This document shows, piece after piece, positions 18,596-29,905 of a DNA stretch of 29,905 nt; position 1 is the first letter of the stretch; each line of letters opens with the position of its first letter. The stretch spans positions 1 to 29,905 of the IMG/VR virus record IMGVR_UViG_3300046028_008611. One strand, written 5' to 3'. The position numbers and the translations under genes are program-made. A model generated the notes under the pieces. The model saw nothing but the letters and a program-made list of their open reading frames with translations, was not told the DNA's origin and made no database searches. The DNA is from a virus.

Positions 18596-19969
18596 ATGAC
18601 ATTAAAATGTATTCAATCATATGGACATGAGTTCCAAATAAAAGTAATTTCATCACTGTTAACACACAAAGAATTTTTAGTTAACATTCATGATATTATT
18701 TCAGATGAGTATTTTGAAAATCCTGCTGTTAAGTGGTGTATAAAAGAAATACTTAACTATTACGACAAATACCACACAACACCTTCTCTTGAAGTGTTAA
18801 AGGTTGAATTACAAAAAGTAGATAATGAAGTATTACAAATCTCCATTAAAGAACAATTAAAACAAGCTTATGTTTCATCTGATGAAGATTTAGAATATGT
18901 TCAAGAAGAATTTACTAATTTTTGTAAAAATCAACAATTAAAAAAAGCATTAATGTCCTCTGTAGATTTATTAAAAGCAGGGGATTTTGATGGTATTCGT
19001 TTTATTGTTGATAATGCTTTAAAAGCAGGACAAGATAAAAATTTAGGACATGAATATGTTAAAGATATTGAAGAAAGATATAGAGAAAATTCAAGAGAAG
19101 TTATACCAACTCCTTGGGACCGTATTAACAATATTTTACAAGGTGGACTTGGAAATGGCGACTTTGGTCTTATATTTGGTAATCCAGGAGGTGGTAAATC
19201 TTGGTCACTAGTTGCCTTAGGAGGACATGCTGTAAGATTAGGATATAATGTTTTACACTATACTCTAGAGTTAGGAGAAGATTATGTTGGTAAAAGATAT
19301 GACGCTTATTTTACTAAAATACCAGTAGATAAAATAGATTCTTTTCGTAATAAGGTTGAAGAAACCATTCCTCAATTACCAGGTAAGTTGATTATCAAAG
19401 AATATCCAACAGGAAGGGCATCAGTTTCAACTATCGAATCACATATTGCAAAATGCACAAGCATGGGAGTAAAACCGGATATGGTTATTATTGACTATGT
19501 AGATTTACTTTCATCAAGAAAAACTAATCGCGAGCGTAAGGATGAAATTGATGATATTTATACTAGCACTAAAGGATTAGCTAGACAATTAAACATACCT
19601 GTTTGGTCTGTTTCGCAAGTTAATCGTGCAGGTGCTAAGGATAATATTATTGAAGGGGACAAGGCTGCAGGGTCGTATGATAAAATTATGATTACTGATT
19701 TTTGTATGTCTCTTTCACGTAAAAAAGAAGATAAAGTAAATAACACAGGTAGATTTCACGTTATGAAAAATAGATATGGTATGGATGGTATTACATTTTC
19801 ATTAGAAGCAGATACATCTACAGGTCATATTTCAGTAAATGATGTCTACGAGGATGATGGTGGAGATGAACATATGGCACCTAAAACTCAATCCAATAAG
19901 TTTGATACCGATGTTGACACTTTCGATAAGCAATTGTTACGCCAGAAATTTTTTGAACTAAACCCTTAA
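18596..19969 (+). CDS. gp41: Replicative DnaB-like helicase (gp41-like)
   Basis: This 457-residue protein has an N-terminal helical domain (about 1-150) and a RecA-like motor. Walker A is GNPGGGKSW at about 195-203; the linker before it reads TPWDRINNILQGGLGNGDFG. Walker B is PDMVIIDYVDLLSS, and GLARQLNIPVWSVSQVNRAG follows, as in the DnaB family. The size is near T4 gp41 (475). It unwinds DNA at the fork. No primase gene is seen next to it, so either the primase lies elsewhere or priming works differently. The gene follows the exonuclease with no spacer. Confidence 0.92.
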   Translation: MTLKCIQSYGHEFQIKVISSLLTHKEFLVNIHDIISDEYFENPAVKWCIKEILNYYDKYHTTPSLEVLKVELQKVDNEVLQISIKEQLKQAYVSSDEDLEYVQEEFTNFCKNQQLKKALMSSVDLLKAGDFDGIRFIVDNALKAGQDKNLGHEYVKDIEERYRENSREVIPTPWDRINNILQGGLGNGDFGLIFGNPGGGKSWSLVALGGHAVRLGYNVLHYTLELGEDYVGKRYDAYFTKIPVDKIDSFRNKVEETIPQLPGKLIIKEYPTGRASVSTIESHIAKCTSMGVKPDMVIIDYVDLLSSRKTNRERKDEIDDIYTSTKGLARQLNIPVWSVSQVNRAGAKDNIIEGDKAAGSYDKIMITDFCMSLSRKKEDKVNNTGRFHVMKNRYGMDGITFSLEADTSTGHISVNDVYEDDGGDEHMAPKTQSNKFDTDVDTFDKQLLRQKFFELNP

Positions 19970-19991
19970 TTTTTAAAAAAAACAACATTAC

Positions 19992-20978
19992 ATGGCAAAG
20001 AAGTCTCTATTGCAGGAAAGAATCGTTTATAAACCATTTGAATATACCGAAGCACACGACTATTGGTTAAAACAACAACAGGCTCACTGGTTACATACTG
20101 AAGTACCAATGATGTCTGATGTAAATGATTGGAAACAAAACTTAACAAAAACAGAAAAAAATATTGTAGGTTCTATATTAAAAGGGTTCGCACAGACTGA
20201 AACTGTAGTAAATGATTATTGGACAAATTTAGTAACTCAATGGTTTAGAAAACCAGAGATTATCAAAATGGCAGTTACATTTGGTGCCTTTGAGACAATT
20301 CACGCTGAAGCTTATTCTTTATTAAATGAAGAATTAGGTCTTGATGATTTTAGTGAATTTCTTGAAGATGAAGCCACAATGGCTAAGATTCAAGGTCTAA
20401 TGGATGTTAGAGATTCACACACTGGTGAAGTAGATTGGCATAAAAGAGCTAAATCATTAGCAATATTTTCAGCGTTTACTGAAGGGGTTAATTTATTTTC
20501 TTCATTTGCAATTTTACTTTCTTTTAAATTACAAAACAAACTCAAAGGAGTAGGTCAGATAGTAGAGTGGAGTATTAGAGATGAATCATTACATTCCGAA
20601 GCAGGGTGTTGGTTATTTAGAACATTAATGGAAGAAAATCCAGATTTAAATACACCTGAATTAAAAGAAGATATCAAACAAGCAGCTTTATTATCTCTAA
20701 AATTAGAATTAGACTTTATTGATAAAGTTTATGAAATGGGAGATTTAGAAGGTTGTTCAAAATATGACTTAGTTAGCTTTATTAAATATAGAGTTAATAC
20801 TAAAATGCAAGATTTAGGTTATGAGTCTATTGTAAACGGTATTGACGCTGCTTCAATTAAAAGGATGAAATGGTTTGATAGCTTATCAGCTGGTAAACAA
20901 CATACAGACTTTTTTGCAAATCGAGTAACAAATTATTCAAAAGGTGTTCAAAATTGGGATGCTAATGACTTATTTTAA
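19992..20978 (+). CDS. nrdB: Ribonucleotide reductase, class I small subunit
   Basis: This 328-residue protein carries the di-iron ferritin-like site. Glu101 and His104 are in ETIHAEAYS, Glu164 in FTEGVNLF, and Glu198 and His201 in RDESLHSEAG. The radical tyrosine is Tyr108, four residues after the histidine as in E. coli (H118/Y122). The first ligand, Asp84 in E. coli, corresponds by spacing to Glu70 in GFAQTETVV, so a Glu replaces the usual Asp. The protein generates the radical that the large subunit uses to make deoxyribonucleotides. It lies 22 bases before nrdA. Confidence 0.94.
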   Translation: MAKKSLLQERIVYKPFEYTEAHDYWLKQQQAHWLHTEVPMMSDVNDWKQNLTKTEKNIVGSILKGFAQTETVVNDYWTNLVTQWFRKPEIIKMAVTFGAFETIHAEAYSLLNEELGLDDFSEFLEDEATMAKIQGLMDVRDSHTGEVDWHKRAKSLAIFSAFTEGVNLFSSFAILLSFKLQNKLKGVGQIVEWSIRDESLHSEAGCWLFRTLMEENPDLNTPELKEDIKQAALLSLKLELDFIDKVYEMGDLEGCSKYDLVSFIKYRVNTKMQDLGYESIVNGIDAASIKRMKWFDSLSAGKQHTDFFANRVTNYSKGVQNWDANDLF

Positions 20979-20999
20979 TATATAAAATTATAAACAAAA

Positions 21000-22715
21000 A
21001 TGGATAACAACTCCTTAATAGCGGATTATAGTAATTGGATTGCTGGTAAAGATTACCCTGAATATATGGATGAAGTTTCTTTGGCTACAATTAGCAAGGG
21101 ATACTTGCTACCTGGAGAGACAGTAAGAACAGCATATAAAAGAGTATCAAATGCCGCAGCTTTTAGATTAAAAAAACCAGAATTAGCCCCTAAATTCTTT
21201 AAAATAATGTGGAATGGTTGGCTAGGTCTTGCATCACCAGTTTTATCAAATATGGGGACAGATAGAGGTTTACCTATTTCATGTTTTGGTATAGATACAC
21301 CTGATTCAATACGTGGAATCGGTTTAACTAACGCGGAACTAATGAAATTAACCGCCTCTGGTGGTGGTGTAGGTATTTCATTATCTCGAATTAGACCACG
21401 TGGAACCGAAATTTCAGGAAATGGTAAATCTGAAGGAGTAGTGCCATGGGCTAAAATATATGATTCATCTATTATTGCTACAAATCAGGGTAATGTTAGA
21501 AGAGGAGCAGCTTCGGTAAATTTAGATATTAATCATGCCGATGTCGATGAATTTTTAGAAATTAGAAGACCAAAAGGTGACCCAAACAGACAATGTTTAA
21601 ACTTACACCAATGTGTAGTTATTGATGATCATTTTATGCGTCGATTAGAAACACGTGATTCTGAAACATTAAATACTTGGGCTAAAGTATTAAAATCAAG
21701 AATGGAAACTGGTGAACCTTACATTATGTACAAAGATAATGTAAATAAACAAAACCCAATGGCTTACATGCTAAATAATTTAGATGTAACTATGACTAAT
21801 ATCTGTTCTGAAATTACATTATTTACAGATGAAGAACATTCATTTATCTGTTGTTTATCCTCTTTAAATTTAGCTAAATATGAAGAATGGAAAGATACAG
21901 ATACTGTAGAGATGGCTACTTGGTTCTTAGATGGTGTAATGCAAGAATTTATTGAAAAATCTAATGGTATAGATTCATTAACTAGAACAAATGCACATGC
22001 TAGAAAAGGTAGAGCATTAGGTTTAGGAGTAATGGGTTGGCATACTTTCTTACAACAAAAAGGATTACCATTTAACTCAATTGCCTCTACAGCTCACACA
22101 CATAATATTTTTAGTGATATTAGAAATAAAGCAGAAAAAGCATCTAGAGATATGGCGGTTGAATATGGGGAACCATTATGGTGTAGAGGTACAGGTATGA
22201 GAAATACTCATTTACTTGCAATTGCCCCAACAGTGTCTAATTCAGTAATTACAGGTGGTATTTCAGCTGGTATTGAACCTTTACCTGCTAACATTTATAC
22301 ATTTAATGGTGCTAAAGGTACTTTTATTAGAAAAAACAAAGTATTAGAAGCTTTATTAGAAAGTAAAGGTTACAACAAAGATGAATATTGGGATCAAATG
22401 TTAAGAGATAATGGTTCAGTAGTAGGGTTATCGGATAATATTTTATCACCAGATGAAAAAGAATTATTTTTAACATTCCCCGAAATCAACCAATTAGAAT
22501 TAGTTAGACAAGCAGCTATCAGACAAAGATATATTGACCAAACTCAATCATTAAACTTAAGTTTTGATGTAAATGATTCACCAAAATGGATTAATCAAGT
22601 TCATATCGAAGCTTGGAAATTAGGAGTTAAAACCTTGTATTATTTAAGAACAGATTCAGTAATAAAAGGTGATTTAGGTTCTAGACAAGCAGACTGTGTG
22701 AGCTGTGATGGTTAA
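21000..22715 (+). CDS. nrdA: Ribonucleotide reductase, class I large subunit, no ATP-cone
   Basis: This 571-residue protein shows the class I catalytic N-x-C-x-E (Asn267, Cys269, Glu271 in NICSEITL). It also has Cys95 in PISCFGIDTP, the GGGVGISLSRIRPRG loop and the C-terminal redox pair Cys566/Cys569 (ADCVSCDG). E. coli and T4 enzymes are about 750-760 residues; here the N-terminal ATP-cone is absent, so dATP would not switch the enzyme off in the usual way. It supplies dNTPs for phage DNA. NrdB comes first in the operon. No thioredoxin or glutaredoxin gene is visible nearby, so the host reductant is presumably used. Confidence 0.95.
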   Translation: MDNNSLIADYSNWIAGKDYPEYMDEVSLATISKGYLLPGETVRTAYKRVSNAAAFRLKKPELAPKFFKIMWNGWLGLASPVLSNMGTDRGLPISCFGIDTPDSIRGIGLTNAELMKLTASGGGVGISLSRIRPRGTEISGNGKSEGVVPWAKIYDSSIIATNQGNVRRGAASVNLDINHADVDEFLEIRRPKGDPNRQCLNLHQCVVIDDHFMRRLETRDSETLNTWAKVLKSRMETGEPYIMYKDNVNKQNPMAYMLNNLDVTMTNICSEITLFTDEEHSFICCLSSLNLAKYEEWKDTDTVEMATWFLDGVMQEFIEKSNGIDSLTRTNAHARKGRALGLGVMGWHTFLQQKGLPFNSIASTAHTHNIFSDIRNKAEKASRDMAVEYGEPLWCRGTGMRNTHLLAIAPTVSNSVITGGISAGIEPLPANIYTFNGAKGTFIRKNKVLEALLESKGYNKDEYWDQMLRDNGSVVGLSDNILSPDEKELFLTFPEINQLELVRQAAIRQRYIDQTQSLNLSFDVNDSPKWINQVHIEAWKLGVKTLYYLRTDSVIKGDLGSRQADCVSCDG

Positions 22716-22727
22716 CAAGATACCACA

Positions 22728-22740
22728 TATTTATAACTAG
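22728..22740 (+). promoter_or_regulatory. Late promoter-like motif before lysis region
   Basis: TATTTATAACTAG keeps the first nine bases of the class 2 motif found before sheath. It lies 20 bases before a strong hairpin with a T-rich tail, so much of any transcript from it would stop after about 45 bases, or it would be attenuated before the lysis genes. Confidence 0.4.
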
Positions 22741-22759
22741 ATTAATAAAATAAAATGTT

Positions 22760-22793
22760 ATGCCTCTTACTATAAGTAAGGGGCATTTCCTTT
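22760..22793 (+). terminator. Intrinsic terminator after nrdA
   Basis: TGCCTCTTACT (22761-22771), loop ATA, AGTAAGGGGCA (22775-22785) form 11 bp with one G-T wobble, plus an outer A-T pair. The tail is TTTCCTTT. It most simply ends the ribonucleotide reductase transcript. Confidence 0.8.
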
Positions 22794-22823
22794 CTCACAT
22801 AGTATTAACTAAAAATAATTCAA

Positions 22824-23009
22824 ATGAATCAAGAACTAGTGTTAAACGAAATCTTAAACCACCTTAAAGAATTAAAACCAACTACAAAATCTAAACCTAT
22901 AATTAAACTTTTACAAGAACTAGAAAACCAACATAAAATCCAAGAAGAAAAACTACAAGTTCAAATTAATCAACTAAAAACTGAAAACCAACGTTTAAGT
23001 CATCTATGA
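22824..23009 (+). CDS. Coiled-coil mini-protein
   Basis: This encodes 61 residues, almost entirely helical and charged (ELENQHKIQEEKLQVQINQL, then KTENQRLSHL), predicting a coiled coil over its second half. There is no signal peptide or membrane span. It lies between the nrdA terminator and the lysis genes. The function is unknown; a small oligomeric regulator or a partner of the adjacent membrane proteins is possible. Confidence 0.6.
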   Translation: MNQELVLNEILNHLKELKPTTKSKPIIKLLQELENQHKIQEEKLQVQINQLKTENQRLSHL

Positions 23010-23047
23010 CTTATTTAAAAATTTCCAATACGTATAAGAAAGTACTG

Positions 23048-23092
23048 TTACACTTAATTAGTTATTTTTTATTTAATTTAATATAAGTGTAA
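23048..23092 (+). promoter_or_regulatory. Inverted repeat abutting the holin-like start codon
   Basis: TTACACTTA (23048-23056) and TAAGTGTAA (23084-23092) are perfect 9-base inverted copies separated by 27 AT-rich bases. The second arm ends one base before the ATG at 23094. In RNA it would form a hairpin whose 3' arm covers the ribosome-binding zone; in DNA it could be an operator. Confidence 0.5.
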
Positions 23093-23093
23093 T

Positions 23094-23336
23094 ATGGCTT
23101 TTAAAGACATTTTTAAAAAATCCAACGACTATAATGAAAAAACAATAATTGGTTTTCTTTCATTTATGGTAATGGTAATGGCAATTATAGTAGATTTAGT
23201 AACAGGGTGGTTAGGTAAACCTTTAGAATTAAATGAATATATCTTTGATGCGTTCATGTATATTACTTTAGGATCTTTCCTACCAGATGTATTGGAAAAA
23301 TTTGCATTAATAAAAAACGGTAAAAAAGAAGAATAA
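23094..23336 (+). CDS. Holin-like small membrane protein
   Basis: This 80-residue protein has a charged N-terminus, a hydrophobic segment at about 18-41 (IIGFLSFMVMVMAIIVDLV), a second at about 50-68 (FDAFMYITLGSFL) and a Lys/Glu-rich tail. This two-span plan with a charged end is that of a class II holin. It overlaps the endolysin start by one base (TAATG), giving tight coupling. The alternative is an unrelated small membrane protein, but the neighbouring muralytic enzyme makes a lysis role likely. Confidence 0.65.
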   Translation: MAFKDIFKKSNDYNEKTIIGFLSFMVMVMAIIVDLVTGWLGKPLELNEYIFDAFMYITLGSFLPDVLEKFALIKNGKKEE

Positions 23337-23947
23337 TGAGCTTAAAAAGTTTACAAGAAAAGATCGGGGTAGCTGCAGATGGAGTATTCGGTCCTGGAAC
23401 AATGAAAAAAGCAATGGAGTTTTATAAATTAACTCCTGTAAGAGCAGCACATTTCTTCGCACAAACTGCTCATGAAACAGGTGGTTTTAAAGCTTTCTCA
23501 GAAAACTTAAACTATTCAGCACAAGGTCTTCAAGGTATCTTTGGAAAATACTTTCCAGGTAACTTAGAAGAATCTTATGCTAGAAATCCTGAAAAAATCG
23601 CTAACAGAGTTTACGCATCTAGAATGGGTAACGGAGCAGAAGCTTCAGGAGATGGATTTAAATTTAGAGGAAGAGGTGCTCTTCAATTAACTGGAAAAGA
23701 CAATTATAAAGCATTTTCAGATTACTTGAAAAAACCAGAAATCATGACTAATCCTGACTTAGTAGCTACAACTTATTCATTTGAATCAGCAATGTTCTTC
23801 TTTGATAAAAATAAATTGTGGTCAATATGTGATCAAGGAATCAACGATGCAGCAATATTAGCATTAACAAAAAGAATTAACGGTGGTACTCACGGGTTAG
23901 AAGACAGAAATCAAAAAACTAAAAAGTATTACGAATACGTTAAATAA
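23336..23947 (+). CDS. Endolysin, GH19 chitinase-like muramidase
   Basis: This 203-residue protein opens with a mini peptidoglycan-binding-like stretch (LQEKIGVAADGVFGPGTMKK, residues 6-25). The GH19 domain follows: AAHFFAQTAHETGGF with the likely catalytic Glu47, YASRMGNG at about 93-100, then GDGFKFRGRGALQLTGKDNY. It is free of a signal peptide, so it needs a holin to reach the wall. It is flanked by two holin-like genes and starts within the stop of the first. GH19 endolysins cut the glycan backbone of peptidoglycan. Confidence 0.93.
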   Translation: MSLKSLQEKIGVAADGVFGPGTMKKAMEFYKLTPVRAAHFFAQTAHETGGFKAFSENLNYSAQGLQGIFGKYFPGNLEESYARNPEKIANRVYASRMGNGAEASGDGFKFRGRGALQLTGKDNYKAFSDYLKKPEIMTNPDLVATTYSFESAMFFFDKNKLWSICDQGINDAAILALTKRINGGTHGLEDRNQKTKKYYEYVK

Positions 23948-23958
23948 GTTACTATAAG

Positions 23959-24375
23959 ATGAAAACTTCACTATTAATTACATTATCATTGACAACAGCA
24001 TGCGCCTTTATAGGTTCATATTTTATGAATCTTACAGCAGATAACATCGAACAATACCTTTCAGTAGCATTTGTAATTTTTGCAGATGGATTTTTTGGCG
24101 TGTGGGCTGGAATCAAGAGAGAAGGATTCCAAACTCGTAAAGCATTAAGTGTAATAAAAACATTTTTATTTTGGATAATAATGCTCTCAGCTATACTAAC
24201 AATAGAAAAAGGATTTACGGGGACAGCTTGGTTAAGTGAAACAATTATGGCTCCATTTTTAGTATTTCAATTAATAAGCATATTAAAAAATGCTTCAATG
24301 GTTGGAGTAGTTAAAAATGAGTTACTAACTCAAATCTTAGATAAGTTAGATAAACATAAAGGACAACGAGAATAA
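23959..24375 (+). CDS. Second holin-like membrane protein (Phage_holin_4-type look)
   Basis: This encodes 138 residues with about four hydrophobic segments: LLITLSLTTACAFIGSYF (about 5-22), LSVAFVIFADGFFGVWAGI, TFLFWIIMLSAILTI and MAPFLVFQLISIL. A polar, charged tail follows (LLTQILDKLDKHKGQRE). The DGFFGVWAGIKREGFQTRKA pattern resembles toxin-secretion/phage lysis holins. It starts 11 bases after the endolysin and ends with an intrinsic terminator, closing the lysis cassette. Whether this or the gene at 23094 is the true holin, or one is an antiholin, cannot be told from sequence. Confidence 0.68.
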   Translation: MKTSLLITLSLTTACAFIGSYFMNLTADNIEQYLSVAFVIFADGFFGVWAGIKREGFQTRKALSVIKTFLFWIIMLSAILTIEKGFTGTAWLSETIMAPFLVFQLISILKNASMVGVVKNELLTQILDKLDKHKGQRE

Positions 24376-24385
24376 TTATAAAGAT

Positions 24386-24412
24386 AGGTTGGATTAGTTC
24401 CAACCTTTTTTT
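24386..24412 (+). terminator. Intrinsic terminator of lysis cassette, overlapping a promoter
   Basis: AGGTTGGA (24386-24393), loop of five, TCCAACCT (24399-24406), then a run of T (24406-24412). It lies almost entirely inside the spacer of the class 1 promoter-like site at 24388-24419. Confidence 0.85.
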
Positions 24413-24419
24413 ATATTTA
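24388..24419 (+). promoter_or_regulatory. Class 1 promoter-like site over the terminator
   Basis: GTTG, 20 bases, TATATTTA. The second box ends six bases before the ATG at 24425, so the transcript would be leaderless or nearly so. The TTCG before the second box seen at most other sites is replaced by the T run of the terminator. Confidence 0.45.
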
Positions 24420-24424
24420 TCAAT

Positions 24425-25651
24425 ATGACAAAATTAAAACAAAGTATATTTCCGTTTCTGATAGCATTCGCTGCTTTATCAGTATCAGCCTCAGCTGCAT
24501 TTTATTCAGTTAGTGGGTTAAGTAAATTATTTGCTGGTGCTTCATTAGAAGTAATTGTAATGGCTAGTTCATTAGAATTTGCAAAATTAGTTATTGCCTC
24601 TCTTTTATATCAATATTGGGGTTCAATAAACAAAGTACTTCGAACTTATCTTTCGATAGCTACTGTAGTGTTAATTTTAATTACCTCAATGGGTATTTAT
24701 GGTTTTTTATCTGCTGCTTACCAAGAAACCGCTAATAAAGCGGGTAGTGTAGACGCTCAAGTTGAATTGTTGGAAACTAAAAAACAAAACTTCATACAAC
24801 AACGAGATTTATATAATACAGAAAAAACTAACTTAGTACAAGGTATTACTCAATTACAAACAGGTTTAGCAGGTAATAAAACTTCATATGTTGATAAAAA
24901 AGGTAGATTAATCCAATCAACAAATGCTGCTAATACAAAATCTTTTGATAAACAGTTAGATAAATCAAATGCTCGACAATCTGAAATTTCATCTAAATTA
25001 GATGCTATAAATGATTCTATATTTAAATTAGATACTAAAATAGTAGAAACTAAAACAAATAGCGATACTGCTGGAGAATTAGGACCCTTAAAGTATTTAT
25101 CTAATCTTACTGGTACTCCTATGGATCAGATTATTAATTATTTATTATTAGTAATTATATTTGTTTTTGATCCTTTAGCTATATCTTTAGTAATTGCAGC
25201 TAACTTTGCTTTTTCTCAAGCATTCCCAAAAAAAAATTATAAAGAAAATTTATACGGGGAACAAGAGGAAATTAAATTAGAAGATATATTTAATGAAGAA
25301 AAAAAAGAAGGTTTAAAAGAATTTATTTCAAAACATAAACAAGAACAAAACATTATTGATATGATGGAAGTTGATGAAGTAGATAAATTTTATTTAAAAC
25401 CTGAAAATGATGAAAGAATGAATATCATAGGACAAAATGGTAATGATGGGTTACATTATGAATCAAACGTTTTAGATACAAATAAAGATGGAGTAGTTGA
25501 TGGTGAAGAAGTTAAAACTGCTCAATCACGACTTGTTCAATTATACCACTTACTTAATTCTAATATATCTTCATGGAGAAGAAGAAAAATTCAAAACGAA
25601 ATTAATACACTTAACTCCGCCCTAAATGACGACGAAACAAAAACTTATTAG
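24425..25651 (+). CDS. Membrane protein with coiled coil and EF-hand loop
   Basis: This encodes 408 residues. There are three hydrophobic segments at about 9-37, 41-65 and 74-99. A long coiled-coil region follows at about 100-215 (ETKKQNFIQQRDLYNTEKTN), then a fourth span at about 233-263 (YLLLVIIFVFDPLAISLVIA). The C-terminal tail is soluble and charged. If the N-terminus is cytoplasmic, the coiled coil is periplasmic. Residues 351-362, DTNKDGVVDGEE, form a canonical EF-hand loop (D, N, D, V, D, E at positions 1, 3, 5, 7, 9, 12). Its position after the lysis genes suggests envelope remodelling, spanin-like action or superinfection exclusion; none is proven. The last 26 bases overlap the nuclease gene. 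Confidence 0.75.
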   Translation: MTKLKQSIFPFLIAFAALSVSASAAFYSVSGLSKLFAGASLEVIVMASSLEFAKLVIASLLYQYWGSINKVLRTYLSIATVVLILITSMGIYGFLSAAYQETANKAGSVDAQVELLETKKQNFIQQRDLYNTEKTNLVQGITQLQTGLAGNKTSYVDKKGRLIQSTNAANTKSFDKQLDKSNARQSEISSKLDAINDSIFKLDTKIVETKTNSDTAGELGPLKYLSNLTGTPMDQIINYLLLVIIFVFDPLAISLVIAANFAFSQAFPKKNYKENLYGEQEEIKLEDIFNEEKKEGLKEFISKHKQEQNIIDMMEVDEVDKFYLKPENDERMNIIGQNGNDGLHYESNVLDTNKDGVVDGEEVKTAQSRLVQLYHLLNSNISSWRRRKIQNEINTLNSALNDDETKTY

Positions 25652-26216
25652 CCTATTATTATTATTTCCCCTATTATTATTTGGGCAATTAAGAGACAGT
25701 GTTTATGTAAAAACTGACATTTATGAAGTGATGTACTCTGAGACATTAGAACAACCACTTTGGGTAAAATATCAGGTTCAGTGTACTGGAGTAGGAGCAT
25801 CTAGAAAAGGTATGGATTTTTATACTGTAAAAGATGTCAAAACCTCAGATGCAAAAGATTATGAGAAAAATGAATGGGACAAAGGTCATGTAGCACCAGC
25901 TGCTGATTTTAATTGTACTAAAGAAATGTTATATAAAACATTCTCATATTTAAATTGCACATTACAACATGAAAAACTAAACAGAGTTCATTGGAGACTT
26001 TTAGAAGACTATGAAAGATTATTAGCATACTCTGAAGGACCAGTATTTGTTGAAGTTAAAGTATTATTTGATAAAATTCCAAAACGAGTAAGTACGGGTG
26101 CAGCTATTCCAACTGCTTTTCTTAAGATAATAAAAACAAAAACTAAAACAATTAAATTTTATTTTAAAAATGAACCACCAACAAAACCAACATTTGTTGA
26201 TTATCAAGTAAAATAA
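25626..26216 (+). CDS. Secreted NUC1-type DNA/RNA endonuclease
   Basis: This encodes 196 residues. An N-terminal signal peptide is clear: Lys at 4 and 6, then the hydrophobic SLLLLFPLLLFG to residue 20. The bba-metal motif is DKGHVAPAADF with His88 as the general base (DRGH in Serratia nuclease). The second motif LNRVHWRLLE gives the Mg-binding Asn119 and, eight residues on, Glu127, the spacing of the Serratia enzyme. The protein is therefore probably exported to the periplasm or outside. The start is supported because a later one would lose the signal. It overlaps the membrane protein gene by 26 bases. Likely roles are degrading incoming DNA or DNA released at lysis. Confidence 0.86.
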   Translation: MTTKQKLISLLLLFPLLLFGQLRDSVYVKTDIYEVMYSETLEQPLWVKYQVQCTGVGASRKGMDFYTVKDVKTSDAKDYEKNEWDKGHVAPAADFNCTKEMLYKTFSYLNCTLQHEKLNRVHWRLLEDYERLLAYSEGPVFVEVKVLFDKIPKRVSTGAAIPTAFLKIIKTKTKTIKFYFKNEPPTKPTFVDYQVK

Positions 26217-26234
26217 TTTAAAAGTATATACAAA

Positions 26235-26270
26235 AAAATTAGGCTCCCGTAGGGAGCCTTCATACATTTA
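26235..26270 (+). repeat. 36-base dyad-promoter cassette, copy 1
   Basis: Matches copy 2 (27799-27834) at 33 of 36 bases. It holds AGGCTCCC, GTA, GGGAGCCT (26241-26259), then TTCATACATTTA. Two of the three differences lie in the loop, so the stem is conserved. Confidence 0.85.
26239..26270 (+). promoter_or_regulatory. Class 1 promoter with dyad in the spacer
   Basis: TTAG, 20 bases, TACATTTA, 26 bases before the ATG at 26297. The 8-bp dyad fills most of the spacer and has no T-run after it, so it may be an operator, a weak terminator for the nuclease gene, or both. Confidence 0.6.
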
Positions 26271-26296
26271 CCACATAATAATTAAAACAAAAACAT

Positions 26297-26512
26297 ATGA
26301 AAAAAGTAATTCCACTTGTTGGGATAGTGCTTATGGTTGCGGGGTTGACCGAGTTACTAGATTTAACATTTTATTTAATGAACCAATCAGATACCTTTGT
26401 ATTTAATTTAGGGTTGGTATCTTTAGCGTGTATTTTCATTGCATTCGGTTTTTTAGGAATGTATACGTACAAATACCTTTCTACGTTTAAAGAAGAAGAA
26501 AAAGAAGAGTAG
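26297..26512 (+). CDS. Small two-span membrane protein
   Basis: This encodes 71 residues with hydrophobic segments at about 5-25 (IPLVGIVLMVAGLTELLDL) and about 36-58 (FNLGLVSLACIFIAFGFLG), then an acidic/basic tail (FKEEEKEE). There is no recognisable domain. It begins a small operon under a dyad-bearing promoter, two bases before the next membrane gene. A membrane-modifying accessory protein is likely, possibly blocking superinfection, but this is a guess. Confidence 0.65.
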   Translation: MKKVIPLVGIVLMVAGLTELLDLTFYLMNQSDTFVFNLGLVSLACIFIAFGFLGMYTYKYLSTFKEEEKEE

Positions 26513-26514
26513 TT

Positions 26515-26889
26515 ATGGAAATGTTTTTTTTAATACTTGTATTAGTTATTTTAGGAGTAATAATATTAGGTACTATAATAGCTCATATTGTACTTTTAAA
26601 TGATGAAGGAGGTATATTAGATGAGAAAGTATTAGAGGATTATCTAAATACTTTATCTGATAACTATGAAATATACCGCTCAGAATATACAATTAGTATA
26701 GTGCCTTTATCTCCAAGTACCTTAAGAAAACAGATAGAAGTATCATACCCCGCTACTACATTACTACTTCCTTACTATATACAAGGAGTAGGAGTAATTC
26801 CAATTTGGAGTAAATCAAAGAAGAGGATTGATGCTATGTTTGAATCATCACCTAAAGTAGATTGGAAAAGAAAAAAATTAGGATTATAA
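26515..26889 (+). CDS. Membrane-anchored protein, unknown
   Basis: This encodes 124 residues with one strong N-terminal hydrophobic segment (residues 2-28, MFFLILVLVILGVIILG) and a soluble domain of about 95 residues with several beta-like stretches (YRSEYTISIVPLSPS, then LLLPYYIQGVGVIPIW). It ends in a basic tail (KRKKLGL). The anchor has no cleavage site I would trust. The start codon follows AGTT, like many here. It sits between the small membrane protein and the SPFH gene; its role is unknown. Confidence 0.65.
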   Translation: MEMFFLILVLVILGVIILGTIIAHIVLLNDEGGILDEKVLEDYLNTLSDNYEIYRSEYTISIVPLSPSTLRKQIEVSYPATTLLLPYYIQGVGVIPIWSKSKKRIDAMFESSPKVDWKRKKLGL

Positions 26890-26909
26890 TAAAAGATTTC
26901 GTATATTAA
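26878..26909 (+). promoter_or_regulatory. Class 1 promoter (SPFH gene)
   Basis: TTAG, 20 bases, TATATTAA, with TTCG before the second box, 31 bases before the ATG at 26941. No dyad in this spacer. The first box lies within the end of the preceding gene. Confidence 0.58.
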
Positions 26910-26940
26910 ACAAATAAATAATTAATTTAAACAACAAGTT

Positions 26941-27780
26941 ATGAACAGAATTTTAGTAGTATTAGGATTAGTAGTGTTATTAGTAGTGGGAGTTTTCTCA
27001 TGTGAAAGAATTGACGCAGGTCATGTAGGTGTAAAAGTGAATCTATATGGTTCAGGTAAAGGAGTAAGTGATGTTACAGAATGTACTGGATTAGTATTTT
27101 ACAATCCAATGTCAACAAAGATCTATGAATTTCCAACTTATATCCAACACAAAGAATATAAGAAATCAGATGAAGGAGATAATTCATTTATTGTAAACAG
27201 TAAGGATGGATCAGAATTTAGTGTATCACCTATTATGAATTACTCAGTACAGAGAGAAAAAGTACCAGCTATCTTTGCAAAATATAGAAGAAGCTTACCA
27301 GAAATCGAAGAAGGATTCTTAAAGACAGCTGTATACGATGCCTTTAGATTAGCAGCAAATAAATACACAGCAGATGGATTGATTTCAAATAGAGAAGTAT
27401 TTGAGGTTGAAGTAAGAAGAATATTAGTATCACAATTACAGAAAGAAGGATTCATATTAAATCAATTCACATCAAATCTAATCTATCCAGATTCATTTAA
27501 GAAAGCTATTAACGCTAAGAATAATGCCGTACAATCAGCTTTAATGGCTGAGAATAAAGTTAAGCAGGCAGAAGCAGAAGCAAAAATTAAAGTAGCAACA
27601 GCAAATGGTAATGCAGAAGCTTTACTAGCAAATGCTCGTGCCGAAGCTGAATCAAATAGATTAAGACAACAAACATTAACTCCGATGTTAATCCAACAAC
27701 AATGGATTGAAAAATGGAAAGGTAATGTACCAACAACACAATTAGGATCAGGTACTAGTGTATTGTACGGATTAAAATAA
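26941..27780 (+). CDS. SPFH/prohibitin-like membrane protein
   Basis: This encodes 279 residues. An N-terminal anchor (ILVVLGLVVLLVVGVFSC) is followed by the band-7 opening IDAGHVGVKVNLYGSGKGVS, then FPTYIQHKEYK and the SPFH core to about 190. A helical, Ala/Glu-rich stalk follows (KQAEAEAKIKVATANGNAEA), then RAEAESNRLRQQTLTP. Cys21 after VFS could be a lipidation site, but Phe at -2 is not ideal for a lipobox. SPFH proteins form ring-like cages on membranes and control proteases. In a phage one may protect membrane proteins or alter host envelope quality control. It is a monocistronic unit with its own promoter. Confidence 0.85.
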   Translation: MNRILVVLGLVVLLVVGVFSCERIDAGHVGVKVNLYGSGKGVSDVTECTGLVFYNPMSTKIYEFPTYIQHKEYKKSDEGDNSFIVNSKDGSEFSVSPIMNYSVQREKVPAIFAKYRRSLPEIEEGFLKTAVYDAFRLAANKYTADGLISNREVFEVEVRRILVSQLQKEGFILNQFTSNLIYPDSFKKAINAKNNAVQSALMAENKVKQAEAEAKIKVATANGNAEALLANARAEAESNRLRQQTLTPMLIQQQWIEKWKGNVPTTQLGSGTSVLYGLK

Positions 27781-27798
27781 TTTAAAAATAAATGTGCG

Positions 27799-27834
27799 AA
27801 AATTAGGCTCCCTAAGGGAGCCTTCGTACATTTA
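27799..27834 (+). repeat. 36-base dyad-promoter cassette, copy 2
   Basis: Second copy of the cassette at 26235-26270. The dyad is AGGCTCCC, TAA, GGGAGCCT (27805-27823), followed by TTCGTACATTTA. It lies about 1.6 kb from the first copy, with three genes between. Confidence 0.85.
27803..27834 (+). promoter_or_regulatory. Class 1 promoter with dyad in the spacer (modification operon)
   Basis: TTAG, 20 bases, TACATTTA, 37 bases before the ATG at 27872. The perfect dyad sits between the two boxes, an operator-like place. It heads the operon with the DpdA-like gene. Confidence 0.62.
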
Positions 27835-27871
27835 TCAAATAAATTGAATAATCAATTAAATAATAAAGGTT

Positions 27872-28405
27872 ATGGTAAAAATGTATAGTCCCGTCTTAAC
27901 TAGACCTCAGTTAGAAAAAGAATTATCTAAATTGCGTAAATTAAATTATAATGCTTTTAGATGGTGGAGAATGTATGACGTTAAATCTCCTAAATTACAT
28001 CACCGTTGTCCATTAATTGATCGTATTAAAAATGGTGATTTTGATTATTCACATTACAAATATCAAGTTGAATGGTGTGAGCACGAAATGAATGATATAT
28101 GGGATCAGTGTCGTCCTGATATGCAAATGTTTGTAGAAAAAACCTCATTATTACGATCTCGTAGAAAACGATTAACCGATGATTTTAATAAAGATGAAGC
28201 TGAAAAATTAGAGGTAGTTATTAAGGCATTTGTAGAATCATTTAGTTGTACTAAAGAACAAGTTTATGAAGAAATTGATAAATGTAGTGGAACCCTAAAA
28301 GATCTTTATTATATTATAGAGAGTAAATACGGTTATCTTTTTTCAACTGTTCCAAATATGTTTAAAACATCTAGAAGAGGACGACCAGCTAAAATAAAAA
28401 TATAA
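27872..28405 (+). CDS. Unknown basic protein with C-terminal AT-hook-like tail
   Basis: This encodes 177 residues. The body is helical with many aromatic and charged residues (NYNAFRWWRMYD, then YKYQVEWCEHEMNDIWDQC) and four Cys, with no membrane segment. The end reads SRRGRPAKIKI: RGRP flanked by basic residues is the core of an AT-hook, which binds the minor groove of AT-rich DNA. The gene overlaps the start of the DpdA-like gene by one base (TAATG), so the two are probably co-translated. It may guide the base-exchange enzyme to DNA, which is inference from the coupling and the tail. Confidence 0.68.
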   Translation: MVKMYSPVLTRPQLEKELSKLRKLNYNAFRWWRMYDVKSPKLHHRCPLIDRIKNGDFDYSHYKYQVEWCEHEMNDIWDQCRPDMQMFVEKTSLLRSRRKRLTDDFNKDEAEKLEVVIKAFVESFSCTKEQVYEEIDKCSGTLKDLYYIIESKYGYLFSTVPNMFKTSRRGRPAKIKI

Positions 28406-29199
28406 TGAAAATATCTCACGAAGTACCTAGGTGTTTATTATCGGTATCATCTGAATTTAACGATTACGATTACTGTCTTCCTCATTTAATGGATGAAGAT
28501 GAAGAATATAGACAATATTTTTACGATGCTAAGGCAAAGGGTAGATATATTGTAATGGATAATTCATTACATGAATTAGGTCATGCCTATGATCATGATC
28601 GTTTATTCTATTGGATGAATGAAATTAAACCAAATGAATTTATTGTTCCTGATGTTTGGATGGATAAAACATCAACTCTAGTTAATGCAAAATACTGGAA
28701 GCAATATAAATATCCAAAAGAAACAACAGCAGTTGCAGTAGTTCAAGCTAAATCGTATGGTGAAGCAGTTGAATGTTATACGATATTGCGTGATTTAAAG
28801 TATAGAAAAATAGCATTTTCATACGGCGCTGATTGGTATGCTGACTTAATTAATATACCGAATAAAACGCTAGCTAAAGCGATAGGACGCATATATACTA
28901 TATCAAAAATGTATGAAGATAAAATTATTGCATCTAAAGATAGAGTACATTTATTAGGTTGTTCTGTACCTCAAGAATTTAGTTGGCATAGAAGTTTCCC
29001 ATTTATTGAATCTATTGATACTTCAAATCCGGTAATGGCTGCTTTAGAAGGAATACGATATACTGAACAAGGTTTAACAATTAAACCTACAGCTAATATG
29101 AATACTCACTTTAACATCGATTTTAAAGATGTTAATTACGAGGATGTTATTTATAACACCACAATGTTTAGAAAAATTAATGGTTTTAAATTAAAATAG
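28405..29199 (+). CDS. dpdA: TGT/DpdA-like base-exchange enzyme
   Basis: This encodes 264 residues. I recognise a tRNA-guanine transglycosylase-like barrel. YIVMDNSLHELG places Asp52 at the position of the substrate-binding Asp of the TGT DSGGFQ motif. FIVPDVWMDK follows (Asp83), then AVVQAKSYGEA, VHLLGCSVP at 181-189 and FIESIDTSNPV with Asp205 as the candidate nucleophile. No zinc-binding Cys cluster of true TGT is visible. Phage DpdA enzymes exchange guanine in DNA for a 7-deazaguanine. The queC gene 400 bases downstream supports this. It is shorter than TGT (about 375), so a DNA-acting small form is likely. Alternative: an unrelated TIM-barrel enzyme. Confidence 0.68.
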   Translation: MKISHEVPRCLLSVSSEFNDYDYCLPHLMDEDEEYRQYFYDAKAKGRYIVMDNSLHELGHAYDHDRLFYWMNEIKPNEFIVPDVWMDKTSTLVNAKYWKQYKYPKETTAVAVVQAKSYGEAVECYTILRDLKYRKIAFSYGADWYADLINIPNKTLAKAIGRIYTISKMYEDKIIASKDRVHLLGCSVPQEFSWHRSFPFIESIDTSNPVMAALEGIRYTEQGLTIKPTANMNTHFNIDFKDVNYEDVIYNTTMFRKINGFKLK

Positions 29200-29205
29200 A
29201 AAGTT

Positions 29206-29454
29206 ATGACAGAAGAAAACAATTTACCCTACATGATGAGTTTGTACGATTATTTAGGTAAAGCAGCTGGGCCCGAACTTGGGAAAGAAGTTTGTGAAGT
29301 CGCAGTTAAATTAAAAGAAACAATTCAGGAAAGAGAAGTTTCAAATCCAAAATATACTGGAAAAATAAAATTATATCGTAGAGAATTTCTTGATACTTAT
29401 TTTGGAAATATAGTATATGAAGGTGAAAAAGTAGAAGATGATTTACCATTTTAA
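29206..29454 (+). CDS. Small protein with SSB-like DDLPF tail
   Basis: This encodes 82 residues. The first 30 are helical (YMMSLYDYLGKAAGPELGKE, then VCEVAVKLKE); then comes a basic stretch (YTGKIKLYRREFLDTYFG) and an acidic linker ending in EDDLPF. The last five residues are the same as those of the phage SSB at 15629-16471 and of the bacterial SSB C-terminal peptide type, which docks onto replication and repair proteins. No OB fold is visible, so it is not itself an SSB. It may compete with or stand in for the SSB tail. It lies in the modification operon, six bases after the DpdA-like gene. Confidence 0.7.
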   Translation: MTEENNLPYMMSLYDYLGKAAGPELGKEVCEVAVKLKETIQEREVSNPKYTGKIKLYRREFLDTYFGNIVYEGEKVEDDLPF

Positions 29455-29457
29455 GTT

Positions 29458-29628
29458 ATGTTAGAAACAGTTATACATTCTTTAGGGTTATGTGGTGAAC
29501 CTCATTTTAAATTGCTTGATATTGCCCCCCTTTATTCGTACATTGTAGAAAATAATAGCGTTTGCCTATACGCTTCAAATACCTGGCACAAATTAAATTA
29601 TAAATTATGTCTAAAAAACATGTTGTAG
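29458..29628 (+). CDS. Possible 56-residue mini-protein overlapping queC
   Basis: This open frame starts with ATG after TTTTAAGTT, the same AGTTATG context as other genes here, three bases after the previous stop. The product ([20 protein letters not shown], then [13 protein letters not shown]) has no membrane segment and no domain I recognise. It overlaps the first 22 bases of queC in another frame, and a class 1 promoter-like site (29515-29546) lies inside it. It may be a real small gene or simply leader DNA of queC. Confidence 0.4.
29515..29546 (+). promoter_or_regulatory. Class 1 promoter-like site for queC
   Basis: CTTG, 20 bases, TACATTGT, with TTCG before the second box, 60 bases upstream of the queC ATG. 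It would allow queC to be expressed apart from the preceding genes. Confidence 0.45.
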
Positions 29629-29905
29629 TATCCTTATCAGGAGGAATGGACTCAAGTACTTTATTACTTAGATGTCTAAAAGAATTTGATAGTGTAACAG
29701 CTATCTCATTTGACTATGGTCAAAAACACAGAGTAGAGCTAGAGAGAGCTCAATCATTAGTAGATTATATTAATGCTACAGCTTTACAGCAAGTAGGATT
29801 AGATGCATTAAAGCATGGAGAACATAGAACTTCTCTTGAACCAATCAATTACCGTCAAATCCAACTAAACGGACTGGTTGATTTATTAGATTCAGCTTTA
29901 GTATT
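29607..29905 (+). CDS. queC: QueC, 7-cyano-7-deazaguanine synthase, 3'-truncated by window edge
   Basis: About 99 residues are visible from ATG 29607; the gene runs past the end of the window. The PP-loop ATP-binding motif [15 protein letters not shown] is at residues 9-23, and [16 protein letters not shown] at about 36-51 is diagnostic of QueC, which converts carboxy-deazaguanine to preQ0 using ATP and ammonia. PreQ0 is the substrate that phage DpdA enzymes insert into DNA. FolE, QueD and QueE partners, if present, would lie beyond the window or come from the host. The usual length is about 220 residues. Confidence 0.93.

Follow-up and report, generated by a model that had tools for sequence, protein, structure and literature searches.

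The window, a 29,905-nucleotide stretch of viral DNA (positions 1 to 29,905 of IMG/VR record IMGVR_UViG_3300046028_008611), ends in a series of plus-strand genes encoding an AT-hook protein that we designate C4, a 264-aa protein that we treat below as a predicted DpdA, two small proteins and a QueC-like enzyme (Table 1). The stop codon of C4 (TAA) and the start codon of the 264-aa ORF (ATG) share base 28405. A sequence-only reading of the window had described this one-base coupling, a TGT-like protein with the motifs MDNS (D52), HLLGC and IDTS (D205), and a QueC-like gene behind it. We recovered all of these elements where it had placed them and found the AT-hook partner to be conserved in the clade. 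The two small ORFs between dpdA and queC were absent from that reading and are kept in 35 and 34 relatives.

Table 1. Predicted genes at the 3' end of the window
Feature	Coordinates	Strand	Evidence
C4, helical, 177 aa, C-terminal AT-hook (RGRP; ends RRGRPAK)	27872-28405	+	IMG/VR family, alignment, model
Predicted DpdA-type DNA-guanine transglycosylase, compact (DpdA3-like), 264 aa	28405-29199	+	AlphaFold, fold match, motifs, dN/dS
Small ORF, 82 aa, no assigned function	29206-29454	+	35 homologues, mostly directly after dpdA
Small ORF, 56 aa, no assigned function	29458-29628	+	34 homologues, sited between dpdA and queC
QueC-like gene, 5' part, open at window end	29607-29905	+	PF06508; SGGMDS; [19 protein letters not shown]

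A second contig, L004, matches window positions 18919-29903 at 99.99% identity over 10,985 bp, and from it the full QueC-like protein of 310 aa could be read (L004:10689-11621). In the window's own phage the visible part of the cluster consists of dpdA and queC, as the window and L004 both end before any queD, queE or folE; a search for sequence extending this phage beyond L004 yielded none. Four tRNA genes (Ser, Gln, Pro, Lys; L004:13237-13561) lie ~1.6 kb past queC, so queD must follow queC less closely here than it does in relatives. Directly upstream of the cluster, the window encodes an SPFH/Band 7 protein (26941-27780; PF01145, 2.8e-21; phrog_200 lipoprotein), and further upstream a DNA/RNA non-specific endonuclease (25626-26216; PF01223, 1.3e-23) with a hydrophobic N-terminal stretch reminiscent of exported nucleases. 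In this phage, a relative of Flavobacterium phages, an endolysin/holin stretch (23090-24363) shares 80% DNA identity with Flavobacterium phage immuto by megablast, and the remainder of window positions 1-25000 has no megablast match; a module exchange is possible.

The 264-aa ORF is more than a chance reading frame, given its match to a PHROGs family (phrog_19058, 9e-41), 112 relatives in IMG/VR and a dN/dS of 0.06-0.08 against two homologues of 93-94% identity. A Pfam search returned nothing above the cut-off, PHROGs matched only function-unknown families, and profile alignment to TGT and DpdA1 was weak. The AlphaFold model (pLDDT 95.5, from a 54-sequence alignment) finds its best Foldseek matches among TGTs and 7ui4 ("DNA preQ0 insertase DpdA"), as the TGT-like assignment of the sequence-only reading predicted. 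VIA-align gave Z 17.3 to archaeosine TGT (233 residues) and Z 17.2 to 7ui4 (230 residues), an aligned length that takes in nearly the whole protein. D52 and D205 are invariant in the 54 clade sequences and align with both aspartate motifs of DpdA1; the weak profile alignment to E. coli TGT also places D205 next to that enzyme's MFDC aspartate motif. The TGT zinc site (CxCxxC...H), which E. coli TGT carries as CDCYTC, is absent from the 264-aa protein.

By tblastn, the protein is 35% identical over 97-99% of its length to homologues in Campylobacter Firehammervirus phages (CP220) and in immuto, where the gene is annotated DpdA (E 3e-46 and 2e-37), with weaker matches in Bacillus, Weizmannia and Cellulophaga phages. 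Small size had earlier been taken as a pointer to a variant system. This argument falls away, since lengths of 258-264 aa are usual in the compact DpdA group, as in immuto, CP21 and BSTP8. We take the compact group (immuto, CP220, phiST, BSTP8) to be the DpdA3 of Cui et al. 2023. Searches with the BSTP8 DpdA as query found no IMG/VR relative. Matches among cellular sequences (genome_contigs) all fall in short metagenome-bin contigs, which are probably stray phage DNA. From the modeled TGT/DpdA fold, the aligned aspartates and this kinship, we conclude that the 264-aa protein is very probably a DpdA-type enzyme.

The genes surrounding dpdA in relatives are those of the 7-deazaguanine pathway. 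Among 50 relative contigs from IMG/VR, 48 encode QueC and 37 FolE. When the analysis is confined to long loci, defined as those with at least 8 kb after dpdA (n=43), QueC, QueD, QueE and a thioredoxin-like gene are each present in all 43, alongside a MazG-like pyrophosphohydrolase (39), FolE (38), the AT-hook protein (34) and a phosphoribosyltransferase (33). All of the counted cluster genes lie on the same strand as dpdA. The expectation that folE, queD and queE would lie downstream is thus borne out in relatives. Pathway genes also occur beside or along with a dpdA homologue in immuto, Campylobacter CP220, Cellulophaga phiST and Bacillus BSTP8. A search of the PDB with the MazG-like profile gave no convincing match on which a kinship to the dGTP-specific MazZ could be judged. 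No QueF was found above the cut-off in the 50 relative contigs; matches at E 1e-2 to 1e-4 were discarded as cross-matches, since their positions fall inside FolE genes. This lack of QueF makes preQ0 or its amide ADG likelier than a preQ1 derivative, and either of the two is most likely the inserted base as judged from gene content in contigs that are fragmentary and in a setting to which the host may contribute.

QueC itself departs from the expected pattern in this clade. A 2026 survey characterizes QueC by two motifs, SGGxDS and the zinc-binding C(x)8CxxCxxC, and takes the second as a mark of preQ0 synthesis (PMC13329287). The window protein matches PF06508 (4.5e-15 for the 99 aa in the window, 2.7e-34 for the full 310 aa from L004), and the clade retains SGGMDS, VPNRN and YPDCR. 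At the site of the zinc cysteines it has SDYKSASSVER instead, and CxxCxxC occurs in none of 75 members. The motif is present in CP220, BSTP8, VpKK5 and Youna2. The same zinc-less variant, 79.6% identical to that of the window's phage, is found in immuto, which is annotated with QueF, an enzyme that uses preQ0, which makes continued preQ0 synthesis by the variant probable. Stenotrophomonas phage Bhz54 encodes a different QueC (L173:3636-4487) that likewise lacks the zinc cysteines, apparently through an independent loss. The zinc-less clade appears to be undescribed in the searchable literature, and because it includes a phage annotated with QueF, it offers a test of the zinc site's necessity for making preQ0.

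The gene coupled to dpdA belongs to a family found at more than 500 IMG/VR loci, in which NYNxFxWWR, RRKRL and, at the C terminus, RGRPxK hardly vary. Searches seeded with C4 and counting loci with at least 600 bp downstream recovered dpdA in 56 of 57 loci, directly or nearly downstream of C4 and mostly as the next gene; some of these contigs also belong to the DpdA-seeded set, and the two counts are to that extent dependent on each other. The junction is usually a short overlap or a direct abutment. The sole exception (L159:3779-4288) has neither dpdA nor a deazaguanine gene in the 10 kb downstream. C4 is also under constraint, with a dN/dS of 0.16-0.17 against homologues of 93-94% identity. 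Its predicted model is helical, and Foldseek and VIA-align gave no solid fold match, the viral, uncharacterized A0A6J5MBI2 reaching E 0.006. A Pfam hit to thymidylate kinase (E 0.12) was dropped, as C4 has no P-loop and the model is helical. The likeliest role for C4, given its AT-hook motif and gene coupling, is that of a DNA-binding partner of DpdA. As a conserved, coupled AT-hook partner of this enzyme, it appears undescribed in the searchable literature.

A further companion of these clusters, encoded in relatives and outside the window, is a Gpt-like phosphoribosyltransferase. It matches Gpt-type purine enzymes in the PDB (7e-27 to 8e-15) and carries the PRPP loop DDICDSG. With this protein as query, tblastn detected the N-terminal part of annotated GTP cyclohydrolases in Vibrio, Stenotrophomonas and Pseudomonas phages, in which residues 1 to ~115 contain the PRPP motif and a FolE domain follows. 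The fused gene lies directly upstream of an annotated DpdA/tRNA-ribosyltransferase in VpKK5, Bhz54 and MMDA13; in two other phages the gene that follows it carries no annotation. Phages of Vibrio, Stenotrophomonas and Sphingomonas have the fused form next to DpdA, with further FolE fusions in Xanthomonas and more Pseudomonas phages. Four of the products annotated "GTP cyclohydrolase" come from DpdA phages of several groups and begin with a Gpt-like domain on which the annotations are silent (L174:4917-5816, L173:4923-5813, L193:3899-4792, L194:3989-4876). As a stand-alone enzyme it is encoded by immuto, phiST, Brevundimonas and Campylobacter phages; BSTP8 and Youna2 have no such form.

As a control, we searched 50,697 phage records with E. 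coli Gpt and found 16. These include two short records that look like host DNA (98% identity), one Salmonella record and two gut fragments, one of which (MT835497) encodes the Gpt-like enzyme without QueC. The other matches come only from Brevundimonas, Flavobacterium and Cellulophaga phages; one was checked per kind, each with pathway genes. The searchable literature, within whose reach the key papers do not fall, makes no mention of Gpt-like guanine recycling in deazaguanine phages, and the Gpt-like gene appears undescribed there as a companion of DpdA clusters.

Taken as a whole, the locus is in our judgment quite likely a phage 7-deazaguanine DNA-modification system, a reading already advanced from the letters of the window and now well supported by the TGT/DpdA fold and the linked QueC, QueD, QueE and FolE. 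Fold, motif positions, linkage and purifying selection are computed; we infer DpdA activity, the identity of the base, the extent of replacement and the roles of C4 and the phosphoribosyltransferase. Weighing against modification of DNA are the missing QueC zinc motif, the weak alignment to TGT and DpdA1 at the level of sequence, and the restriction of the visible cluster in the window's own phage to dpdA and queC. In the proposed scheme, FolE, QueD, QueE and the QueC-like enzyme would convert GTP to a 7-deazaguanine base. DpdA would cleave the guanine-sugar bond in DNA, with D205 as nucleophile and D52 as acid/base, insert the deaza base with release of guanine, and thereby shield the phage genome from the host's restriction enzymes. 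C4, with its coupled gene, might hold DpdA on AT-rich phage DNA, a step we regard as somewhat short of an even bet. TGT chemistry frees one guanine for each base inserted, and conversion of that guanine to GMP removes the product and refills the GTP that FolE uses. The Gpt-like enzyme would serve in this capacity, an assignment that we marginally favor.

Base exchange could instead precede replication: DpdA would swap the base of dGMP, a kinase would make the triphosphate and the MazG-like enzyme would destroy dGTP, by analogy with T4 hydroxymethylcytosine and the Z-DNA phages. If true, this combination would allow complete guanine replacement during replication. Kinase-like genes of different families adjoin dpdA in Campylobacter, immuto, phiST and Bacillus phages, and probably in Youna2; MazG-like genes belong to 39 of 43 clusters, with another family in phiST; and this DpdA is small, without an extra nucleic-acid domain. 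In CP220, the gene before dpdA (L162:4868-5899) encodes a single protein in which an HD phosphohydrolase domain is joined to one resembling P-loop kinases. The window's clade, however, has no kinase beside dpdA, a full-length phrog_2107 kinase being confined to 7 of 50 contigs, at a distance from dpdA; its place is taken by an AT-hook protein with a DNA-binding motif, and nucleic acids are known substrates of TGT-fold enzymes. For these reasons we retain action on DNA and consider exchange at the nucleotide level improbable. Crippen et al. 2019 reportedly saw no dADG phosphates in Firehammervirus-infected cells, which also counts against it. Action on phage or host tRNA, raising queuosine-type bases rather than modifying DNA, would fit the TGT fold and the tRNA genes in relatives and in the window's phage. 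We nonetheless judge it highly improbable: the protein lacks the TGT zinc site and is ~110 residues shorter than E. coli TGT, its nearest named structure apart from TGTs is DpdA, a homologue occurs in CP220, where 100% of dG is reportedly replaced, and its cellular relatives are confined to short metagenome-bin contigs.

A separate question is whether C4 and the phosphoribosyltransferase have any role in modification or are mere neighbors through inherited gene order. C4 loci are drawn from a single broad group of phages, salvage genes are numerous in phages, the L159 locus has C4 with no deazaguanine gene within 10 kb, and one gut fragment has a Gpt-like gene without QueC. Against this, C4 and dpdA still overlap or directly abut in relatives whose C4 is 30-60% identical, and almost all phage Gpt-like genes belong to deazaguanine phages, of groups separate from one another, with FolE fusions in several. 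We therefore hold bystander status for the two genes to be the less probable account, though one with a substantial chance of being right. Should C4 instead prove to be a subunit that targets DNA, it would, as far as our searches reach, be the first DpdA partner protein. The modification reading also suggests what two previously unassigned families probably do, namely phrog_19058 and that of the AT-hook partner, which spans more than 500 loci. It makes guanine supply a testable matter as well, in that freed guanine is apparently returned to the GTP pool feeding the new base by an enzyme that elsewhere is fused to FolE.

An enzyme of this kind is already known; new in the clade are C4 as its partner, a QueC without the zinc motif and the connection with guanine recycling. 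Its closest counterparts, the group of Flavobacterium immuto 2-6A, Campylobacter CP220, Cellulophaga phiST and Bacillus BSTP8, resemble the window in DpdA length, motifs and deazaguanine linkage. The window's clade is distinguished from them by the adjoining queC, the coupled AT-hook partner and the absence of a kinase beside dpdA. Bacterial DpdA (7ui4) has the fold in common over 230 residues (Z 17.2), but shares 16% identity, is 413 rather than 264 residues long and sits in another gene context. Phage DpdA1, as in Vibrio VpKK5 and Enterobacteria phage 9g, has alignable aspartate motifs and the same pathway genes; at 307 aa, it does not match the window protein significantly in sequence, and the VpKK5 FolE is fused to the phosphoribosyltransferase. 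Tgt has in common the TIM-barrel fold and the nucleophile motif, whereas the window protein is much shorter and lacks the zinc site. Canonical QueC (PF06508) likewise possesses SGGxDS, VPxRN and YPDCR, and the clade's QueC differs in its missing zinc cysteines and a long C-terminal insert. Compared with E. coli Gpt (E 8e-15), the enzyme of the window's relatives shows the same RGGL, DDxxDxG and W..PW hood motifs, but is shorter and is found in a deazaguanine cluster or fused to FolE.
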